From assembly GCA_003693905.1 (NCBI GenBank), contig RFLL01000302.1:1-5070 (forward strand): a stretch of 5,070 nt of DNA. Direction: 5' to 3'. Both the position numbers and the translations under genes were made by a program. Below the pieces are notes generated by a model, which was not told the DNA's origin, searched no databases, and saw only the letters and a list, made by a program, of their open reading frames with translations. The DNA is from Alphaproteobacteria bacterium (GTDB lineage Bacteria > Pseudomonadota > Alphaproteobacteria > Kiloniellales > J153). Shown here piece by piece: positions 2,841 through 5,070 of the stretch; positions within the stretch are counted from its first letter, which is position 1; each line of letters starts with the position of its first letter.

Positions 2841-5070
2841 ATGGCGCTCTCTGTTCTGCATAACACCGGCGCGGCCGTTGCCAATCGCCTGCTCGTCGAG
2901 AACGACGCGCGGTTGACGCGCTCGATTGCGCAGCTTTCCGCTGGCACCCGCGTGCTCGGCGCGCGCGACGACGCGGCGGCGATGGCGATCGGCTCGCGCC
3001 TGAACGCAGAGATTGCGTCCTTGCAGCAGGCGGCGCTCAACGCCGGGCAGGCCAGCACCATGTTGCAGATCGCCGACGGTGCCGCCGCCTCGATCGACAT
3101 GATTCTCGTGCGCATGAAGACGCTGGCCGTACAGGCGGCGTCGGAGCAGATCTCCGACGTCGAACGGGCCATGCTCGACACCGAATTCAATGCGCTGGTG
3201 AAGGAGATCGACCGCATCTCCAAGGTCACCAAATTCAACGGCCGCAGTCTGCTTCAGGGCGATACGGAAAAGGGCATCATCTACACGATCCGCAGTCTGC
3301 CGACCAAAGGCACGATCGAACTCGACGGCAAGGCTCTGGGACTGGGCGATACCTTCACCCAGGCCGATATCGATGCCCGGCGCATCGTGTTTCTGGATGA
3401 CGGCAAAAGCACCGGCACCGACCGCCTGATCGTCACCGCCACCGACATCAACGGCAACGCCCTTGGCGCGGTCGTCGGCGAGCTTGATCGCACGACGTTC
3501 GAAACGGCCGAATATGCCGCCTCCAGCGCCCTCGACAATATTCGTGCTTCGGCCGCTTATGCCCGCGGGGCCACCGGCAAGGGCATCAAGGTGGCGGTCA
3601 TCGACAGCGGTGTCGATCGCACGCACACGGATCTCGACGACAACCTCAACACGGTCCAGTCGGTCGATATCGTCGACGGCATGGTCGGTGCGGCGGTCAA
3701 CCTCGGCGCCGTCACCTTCGGTGCCGAAAAGCTCGGCAATGTCGGCTTCGGTCACGGCCTTGCCAACGGTCAGCCCTTCTTCGGCACCTTCGGCGATTTC
3801 TCGTTTATGGACAAAAGTCAGGCCCAGGACCTGAGTTTTACCGGCACCGCCGACAACGCGACCGTGCGGCTGACCACCGATGATGGCACCATTTTCGAGG
3901 CCACCGGCGTCAACCTGAGCGCCGGGGTCGATGTGGCGACCGTGATCCTTGTCGGGCAGGGTGGCAACGGAGCCGGCAAGGCCGTCGCTCTGGAAATTGA
4001 TGCCAGTGGCGTGACCGGCACCGGTGCCGCGGCGGGTGGACCGGTCGATGTCAAAGCCATCTTCGATCGCACCACCAACCCCACCACCGGTCTCGGCGAC
4101 GATCTGGCCGGAACGTCCAATTCAGGCCACGGGACCCACGTCGCCGGCATCATCGCCGCGGAAAAGAACGATACCGGGGTGCATGGTGTTGCCTATGAGG
4201 CGGAGGTGGTATCCATCCGCGTCACCCGTGCGGATTCCGATCCGCTCGGCCCGATCAATCAGAACGACCTGGCCGATGCCATCGACTATGCGGTTTCGAC
4301 CGGGGTGCGCATCATCAACCTGAGCCTCGGCGCCTCCACGACGCAGATCGACCAGGATCTGGCTGACGCCATCGGCCGCGCCGTCAACGCCGGCGTGGTC
4401 GTGGTCGCTTCGGCCGGGAACTCAAGCCTGCAGTCGCCCGGTTCGCCAGCCAACTTTGCGGTCAAACCCGAGGCCAAGGGCATGCTGATCTCGGTGGTCG
4501 CAACCGACGACGACAATGCACTGGCAAGCTTCAGCAACCGCGCCGGTTTCGTCGCGGATTTCACCGTGGCCGCACCGGGGGTGGGCATCCTGTCGACCAA
4601 GGCGGGGGGTGATTTCGAACTCAAGGACGGCACTTCGATGGCGGCGCCGATGGTTTCGGGCGCATTGGCTCTGGTCATGGACAAGTTTTCGGACTTGTCC
4701 GGTCAAGAAGCGGTCAACCTGCTGTTCAGCACCGCCACCGACCTCGGTGAAGCGGGCATCGACGATGTCTTCGGCCGCGGTCTGATCGACCTCGATCGCG
4801 CCACGTTGCCGCAGCTTGCTCTGACCATCAATCTGGATTCGACGACCTTCATCGCCGATGCCATCAACGTCGCACCAGGGCAGGCGGCGCTGGTGGATGC
4901 GAGCCTGCTCGACCTCAGCCAGGCCTACACGGGCAAGCTTTCCATCGCCGCGCAGAACCTGGCCTACCGAATCGGTTCCGGGATTGTTGCCAGTGACGAG
5001 ATCGCAGTCACCATCGAGGCCATAAGCGCCGGTACCCTGGGGCTGGCCGGCACGCGCATTGCCACTATCG
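2841..5070 (+). CDS. Flagellin N-terminal domain fused to a subtilisin-like (S8) serine protease; 3' end outside window
   Basis: 743 residues are visible without a stop. Residues 1-140 are flagellin D0/D1: LTRSIAQLSAGTRV, RDDAAAMAIGSRL, LQIADGAAASIDMIL, RMKTLAVQAAS, EIDRI and FNGRSLL. Residues 145-216 resemble a cadherin-like/CSPG repeat (YTIRSLPTKGTIELDG, GDTFTQADID, DRLIVTATDINGN). Residues ~230-655 are an S8 subtilase: catalytic Asp255 in VAVIDSGVD, His430 in SGHGTHVAG, oxyanion Asn527 in ASAGN, Ser599 in DGTSMAAPMVSG, and a GRGLIDLDRA end. All key residues are present, so activity is expected. A ~160-residue Gly/Thr/Asp-rich insertion separates Asp and His. Residues 659-743 are beta-rich and unassigned. 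No signal peptide or I9-type propeptide is seen, so export through the flagellar type III system is inferred from the flagellin N-terminus. The expected role is a protease carried on the filament or secreted. The C-terminal flagellin domain lies beyond the window, if it exists. The domain calls are firm; the filament role is inferred. Confidence 0.92.
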   Translation, partial: MALSVLHNTGAAVANRLLVENDARLTRSIAQLSAGTRVLGARDDAAAMAIGSRLNAEIASLQQAALNAGQASTMLQIADGAAASIDMILVRMKTLAVQAASEQISDVERAMLDTEFNALVKEIDRISKVTKFNGRSLLQGDTEKGIIYTIRSLPTKGTIELDGKALGLGDTFTQADIDARRIVFLDDGKSTGTDRLIVTATDINGNALGAVVGELDRTTFETAEYAASSALDNIRASAAYARGATGKGIKVAVIDSGVDRTHTDLDDNLNTVQSVDIVDGMVGAAVNLGAVTFGAEKLGNVGFGHGLANGQPFFGTFGDFSFMDKSQAQDLSFTGTADNATVRLTTDDGTIFEATGVNLSAGVDVATVILVGQGGNGAGKAVALEIDASGVTGTGAAAGGPVDVKAIFDRTTNPTTGLGDDLAGTSNSGHGTHVAGIIAAEKNDTGVHGVAYEAEVVSIRVTRADSDPLGPINQNDLADAIDYAVSTGVRIINLSLGASTTQIDQDLADAIGRAVNAGVVVVASAGNSSLQSPGSPANFAVKPEAKGMLISVVATDDDNALASFSNRAGFVADFTVAAPGVGILSTKAGGDFELKDGTSMAAPMVSGALALVMDKFSDLSGQEAVNLLFSTATDLGEAGIDDVFGRGLIDLDRATLPQLALTINLDSTTFIADAINVAPGQAALVDASLLDLSQAYTGKLSIAAQNLAYRIGSGIVASDEIAVTIEAISAGTLGLAGTRIATI

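Follow-up and report, generated by a model that had tools for sequence, protein, structure and literature searches.

Can a bacterial flagellin carry an entire subtilisin-type protease, and would a flagellum built with it digest the proteins around it? The question is raised by a gene at the end of contig RFLL01000302.1 (C33; assembly GCA_003693905.1, Alphaproteobacteria bacterium), the whole of which, 5,070 bases, was analysed and is called the window here; the source genome consists of 455 contigs and is 59.6% complete. The gene, on the forward strand and truncated by the contig end, encodes a flagellin with an entire Peptidase S8 domain in its middle, and its product probably leaves the cell through the flagellum and becomes a minority component of the filament, in which case the filament would cut surrounding proteins. 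Its parts are as follows, all on the + strand.

2841..5069 (+): the protease-flagellin gene; ATG start, 743 codons, no stop before the contig end, 3′ end cut
2856..3263 (+): Flagellin_N (PF00669, 105.1 bits), the D0/D1 N-terminal helices, residues 6-141
3261..3449 (+): Cadherin_3-like beta segment (PF16184, 36.7 bits), residues 141-203
3477..3575 (+): subtilase lead-in (F-E-T-A-E-Y motif, then helices), residues ~213-245, close to where similarity to 42 of 76 non-flagellin S8 proteins starts
3576..4781 (+): Peptidase_S8 domain (PF00082, 174.9 bits, full profile 1-288), residues 246-647
3603..3605 (+): catalytic Asp255, motif VIDSG
3678..4115 (+): extra segment separating catalytic Asp from His, residues ~280-425, modelled in part as beta strands
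4128..4130 (+): catalytic His430, motif GHGTH
4419..4421 (+): oxyanion-hole Asn527, motif SAGN
4635..4637 (+): catalytic Ser599, motif GTSM
4941..5066 (+): flagellin sequence resuming ahead of the C-terminal D1/D0 helix, residues 701-742 (plain-flagellin C-terminal profile, 28.9 bits)

The existence of this flagellin-plus-protease gene is confirmed. A preliminary description had placed a full flagellin N-terminus and a complete S8 set (D255, H430, N527, S599) in a single reading frame, and Pfam and the motifs show its coordinates and residue numbers to be correct throughout; the Flagellin_N, Peptidase_S8 and Cadherin_3 matches all exceed the curated Pfam cut-offs (26.6 bits for Flagellin_N). 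The same description had left it open whether a C-terminal D1/D0 follows the protease, and the evidence fits that it does. Flagellin_C (PF00700) was detected by Pfam in all 42 complete relatives scanned, in which the protein is organized as flagellin-S8-flagellin. These relatives extend beyond the last residue of the window protein by 93 residues in 40 cases and by 94 in two when aligned (a partial relative, P0041, by none), and, judged from them, ∼93 codons of the window gene probably lie beyond the contig end. Residues 701-742 of the window protein score 28.9 bits with a profile of plain-flagellin C-terminal parts (76 sequences), against a maximum of 6.2 bits in 200 shuffles of this segment, so that a flagellin-protease-flagellin sandwich, minus its last helix, is already visible inside the window.

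The same architecture is found well beyond this contig. Among the best 120 of 1,941 matches of a protein search, which included the window's own fragment (P0001), there were 43 other proteins combining flagellin and S8 parts (42 with both flagellin ends and the partial P0041) and 76 S8 proteins without flagellin. The best 120 of 621 matches of a profile search added three complete members and returned 40 of the 43 earlier relatives; P0024, P0042 and P0044 are missing from that list, only candidates sharing most words being scored. The family thus comprises at least 47 proteins, namely that of the window, 45 complete relatives and one partial one. The lowest-scoring complete member listed in the profile search reached 911 bits, P0041 756 bits and the window fragment 567 bits, and the first plain flagellin followed at 396 bits. 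A Pfam scan of 43 of the 47 members (the family without P0041 and P0121-P0123) detected Flagellin_N, S8 and Cadherin_3 in every one, the window included.

An artefact can be set aside on these grounds. The preliminary description would have been undone by an assembly join or frameshift between ∼3270 and 3530, or by the two domains being separate genes in relatives; there is no sign of a join, and a flagellin start followed by S8 occurs within one protein in 46 relatives, 45 of which also have the flagellin end. Since these relatives lie on many contigs from several sources and keep the same order, chance or mis-joining is very unlikely, and the combination first noted in the window alone is shared by at least 46 further proteins.

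The protease itself appears intact in sequence. The catalytic Asp, His and Ser and the oxyanion-hole Asn are kept in all 47 members, and the domain belongs to Peptidase S8 by its subtilisin fold; S8 is the sole peptidase family found by Pfam in the window and the scanned members, and the HExxH motif occurs in none of the 47. The top curated protease models for the window protein are mycosin at 165.5 bits and EprS, an autotransporter peptidase (NF051851), at 136 bits; both score under their cut-offs. Subtilisin folding usually requires a propeptide; Inhibitor_I9 is absent from the four Pfam families detected in the 43 scanned members at E 0.001, a search that a diverged propeptide could escape.

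The extent of the inserted module was judged from alignments with the 76 non-flagellin S8 proteins. For the window protein, 42 of these show similarity from residues 180-239 onwards (40 of them from 200-239) and the other 34 from residues 370-429. For the relative P0015, similarity begins at residues 210-234 with 69 of them and stops at 525-569 with 74. Because the similarity of P0015 begins there, the lead-in with its T-A-E-Y motif seems to be part of the transplanted protease module; alignment starts were used for this purpose, a regular expression for the lead-in, which matched 17 of the 76, being too strict. The spacing between catalytic Asp and His is long (153-175) in 14 of the 47 members, including the window, and 36-51 in the other 33. 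The extra segment responsible has no separate Pfam match, and the strands modelled at its residues 328-386 are of low confidence. For the model of P0032, the VIA-align 2 rows span residues 214-520 only; one domain filled the list, which is thus uninformative on the flagellin ends, as are the Foldseek lists shown.

Phylogenies of the two parts agree. In a tree of flagellin ends from 95 sequences, 46 protease-flagellins (the partial P0041 was left out) form one clade against 49 plain flagellins (38, being every second of the 76, and 11 others) with a support of 0.73, and in a tree of protease domains, from which P0045 with its two S8 domains was omitted, the 47 members separate exactly from 75 other S8 domains with a support of 0.955. 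As flagellin ends and protease domains each form one clade, the fusion most likely arose once. The protease-flagellins of two alphaproteobacterial genomes, G438 and G274, are 82.5% identical, with dN 0.124 and dS 0.517 over the whole gene and dN 0.106 and dS 0.445 over the S8 domain, values that argue against a decaying protease, in this one pair only. Between the same two genes dN increases from 0.071 in the N-terminal part to 0.106 in S8, 0.212 after the protease and 0.218 at the C-terminus; the plain flagellin pair of these genomes has dN 0.149 and dS 0.675.

As far as sampled, the fusion appears rare and patchy. Flagellin and protease parts were both matched in two of 61 genomes of the order (the window's own and G033), in at least three of 385 sampled from the class (its own, G274 and G438, with 11 more passing on the protease part alone), in two of 11 genomes from the order to which G274 belongs and in at least one of 398 sampled from the phylum (its own); the class and phylum counts are lower bounds because no more than two candidates were scored in any genome. 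A gene of G070 (L028:5098-6711), which matches window residues 1-497 at 28%, was considered as a diverged member and rejected: S8 is not matched in it, and both flagellin ends are present. A tblastn search of 72,556 plasmid records with P0032 as query gave no match at E 1e-40, and a scan of genome contigs gave one locus, which covers query residues 404-632 only and shows no fusion. Named carriers are Hypericibacter adhaerens, H. terrae, a Hypericibacter metagenome-assembled genome (MAG) with a partial protein, and a 'Kiloniellales bacterium' MAG. Hypericibacter is placed taxonomically in the Rhodospirillales, Alphaproteobacteria, to which the name Kiloniellales also leads. Two relatives come from named Hypericibacter species and each sits on a single contig, of 5.87 Mb and 5.89 Mb, the former carrying the H. 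adhaerens protein P0032; H. adhaerens, which we take to be cultured, makes testing practical.

The neighbourhood of the gene was compared in the window and in three genomes with relatives. The features concerned are listed below.

Window, 3-1316: C-terminal half of an HpnN-like hopanoid transporter (TIGR03480, 449.7 bits, below cut-off), frame cut by the contig end
Window, 1313-2386: HpnL-like membrane protein (TIGR03476, 165.2 bits, cut-off 195.65)
G033, L024:7203-9536 and 14028-16358: plain flagellins of 777 and 776 residues flanking a 999-residue FliD
G033, L023:673-8539, strand opposite the protease-flagellin: type I secretion-type genes (outer-membrane efflux protein, HlyD-type protein, ABC transporter)

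In the window the order is hpnN-like gene, hpnL-like gene, tRNA-Gln and protease-flagellin gene. Between the last two, at 2648-2719, are three head-to-tail units of 24 bases, the third of which has diverged (63% to the first). The two plain flagellins of G033, whose long middle regions have no Pfam match at E 0.01, surround the FliD gene, and the protease-flagellin is on a different contig, between the type I secretion-type genes and a pyrophosphatase gene. The protease-flagellin genes of G438 and G274 are both near a contig end and adjacent to an amidohydrolase gene, with plain flagellins elsewhere, and G274 has a second match, cut by a contig end. Ordinary flagellins are also present in the genomes of the three relatives checked. 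The window's genome has three flagellar rod family matches and a single Flagellin_N gene; frames beside its PF00460 match (L064, G000:C334) look by eye like FlgB, FlgC, FliR and CsrA.

In flagellins, the D0/D1 ends target the subunit to the flagellar export channel and then hold it in the core of the filament, leaving the middle region exposed on the outside. In the protease-flagellins, these ends would carry the protein unfolded through the export channel and then lock it into the core; folding of the protease would be confined to the exterior and proceed with no classical I9 propeptide, sparing the cytoplasm, and the outward-facing domain could release peptides from biofilm matrix, particles or other protein-rich surroundings. 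The protein is interpreted here as an accessory component of a filament of mixed composition, because ordinary flagellins occur in the genomes of the three relatives and no flagellar gene is found among the few neighbours scanned, and the coexistence of ordinary flagellins in those genomes makes it more likely that the protease subunit is in the minority. The thousands of possible active sites per flagellum envisaged in the preliminary description are, like the proteolytic filament itself, an inference.

Several observations weigh against this proposal. The fusion was matched in none of the eight other genomes of the same family, and the clade of flagellin ends has moderate support (0.73). The window's own Flagellin_C end lies past the contig end, and neither Flagellin_C, FlhA nor a second flagellin was found in its genome, which at 59.6% complete proves little. 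In G033, type I secretion-type genes adjoin the protease-flagellin on the opposite strand, and the neighbouring frames examined with Pfam (seven in G033, three in G438 and one in G274) include no flagellar gene. Sigma-28 and sigma-54 patterns were scored over the 300 bases ahead of 11 genes and no promoter stood out, but this simple scoring, which had no shuffled control, is not informative: out of 12, the best sigma-28 score was 8 ahead of the window gene and 9 ahead of both the G438 and the G274 protease-flagellin, and a plain flagellin of G274 reached 10. With no flagellar neighbour among the frames scanned and no promoter standing out, expression together with the flagellum is left unproven.

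Three other readings were considered. Subtilases often self-cleave, and the protein might pass through the flagellar channel and then act as a soluble protease, its flagellin ends being export or anchoring remnants that are removed by self-cleavage. The lack of flagellar genes among the few neighbours scanned favours this, as do the flagellin ends of the clade, which by eye appear longer-branched than those of most plain flagellins in the tree; yet a mere export signal would require no whole D1/D0 C-terminus, which is kept in all 42 complete relatives scanned, and the last 93 residues have dN 0.218 and dS 0.717 in the one pair compared. Release as a soluble protease is judged unlikely. Secretion by a type I system instead of the flagellum is brought to mind by the ABC transporter, HlyD-type protein and outer-membrane efflux protein beside the G033 gene. 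No such gene was found in a small sample of frames near the genes of G438 (three), G274 (one) and the window (two), and type I secretion signals are usually C-terminal, whereas the C-terminus of this protein is a flagellin helix; this route is considered very improbable. It is the conserved C-terminal flagellin half that weighs most against both of these possibilities.

The protein could also be a FlgL-like protein of the hook-filament junction, with few protease copies per flagellum as the consequence. Several relatives are labelled 'flagellin-like hook-associated protein FlgL' by JGI, a name that we presume to cover flagellins too. The best flagellin model outscores the FlgL model in all six proteins tested (for the window, NF009444 at 86.5 bits against TIGR02550 at 51.7; for P0015, 178.2 against 83.4), and in G274 a separate 304-residue frame, which matches Flagellin_N weakly (32.2 bits), looks by eye like its FlgL. 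A junction protein is likewise considered very improbable. An incorporated, outward-facing protease subunit remains the preferred interpretation. A broader proposal, somewhat less secure and still favoured, is that this is an independently invented second proteolytic flagellum, in which a subtilisin lacking a classical propeptide is threaded unfolded through the channel and folds outside, making the filament of some alphaproteobacteria a surface digestive enzyme. If this is true, flagellar filaments have been armed with proteases at least twice, via unrelated folds, which would make the enzymatic filament a recurring solution rather than a single oddity. It would also raise a question of secretion, namely how a subtilisin stays harmless inside the cell and becomes active outside after passage through the flagellar channel.

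The closest known system is flagellinolysin, described in Clostridium haemolyticum (FliA(H)) and Hylemonella gracilis, in which a protease lies within the flagellin variable region (Eckhard 2017, PMC5595980; PMC7643111). According to the text of PMC5595980, the C. haemolyticum protein occurs on the filament beside ordinary flagellin, both being present in sheared filaments, and has been shown to be active; by analogy, the plain flagellins in the genomes of three relatives suggest a mixed filament here as well. The protease of the window family is likewise inserted between flagellin halves, as Pfam and the C-terminal profile indicate, but flagellinolysin contains a zinc gluzincin of the M9/collagenase-related type with an HExxH motif, as presented there, and the window family an unrelated serine protease of the subtilisin fold. 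The S8 flagellin is therefore not a flagellinolysin, the defining metallopeptidase domain being absent and HExxH missing from all 47 members, and because the two enzyme families are unrelated, the convergence proposed in the preliminary description is supported. Flagellinolysin is reported in PMC5595980 to be spread over several phyla, whereas the S8 flagellin was seldom found, the few members with names being alphaproteobacterial.

The preliminary description had also known of no described equivalent, and the literature search agrees, no S8 flagellin having been found in the material covered, which included the main text of the survey in PMC5595980 (January 2017) and not its supplementary list of 61 domains. 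In that main text 'subtili' and 'subtilase' do not occur and 'serine' occurs once, in a reference title; its Table 1, a list of the ten commonest variable-region domains that does include Peptidase_M26 and sialidase, has no Peptidase_S8. The flagellins with those two domains resemble the present family in having an enzyme-family domain in the variable region and differ in the family concerned. A related S8 domain is found in autotransporter subtilases such as EprS and Ssp of Serratia (8e7f, row 46 of the fold matches), from which the S8 flagellins differ in having flagellin ends, no autotransporter barrel being found in them. Among plain flagellins compared (without G092, G045 and G035), those of G012 and G049 (390 residues) and G438 (489 residues) are shorter and 59-62% identical to the window protein over the first ∼140 residues, the BLAST match being confined to this N-terminal stretch. 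As far as its sequence tells, the S8 flagellin would work like flagellinolysin with an unrelated fold.
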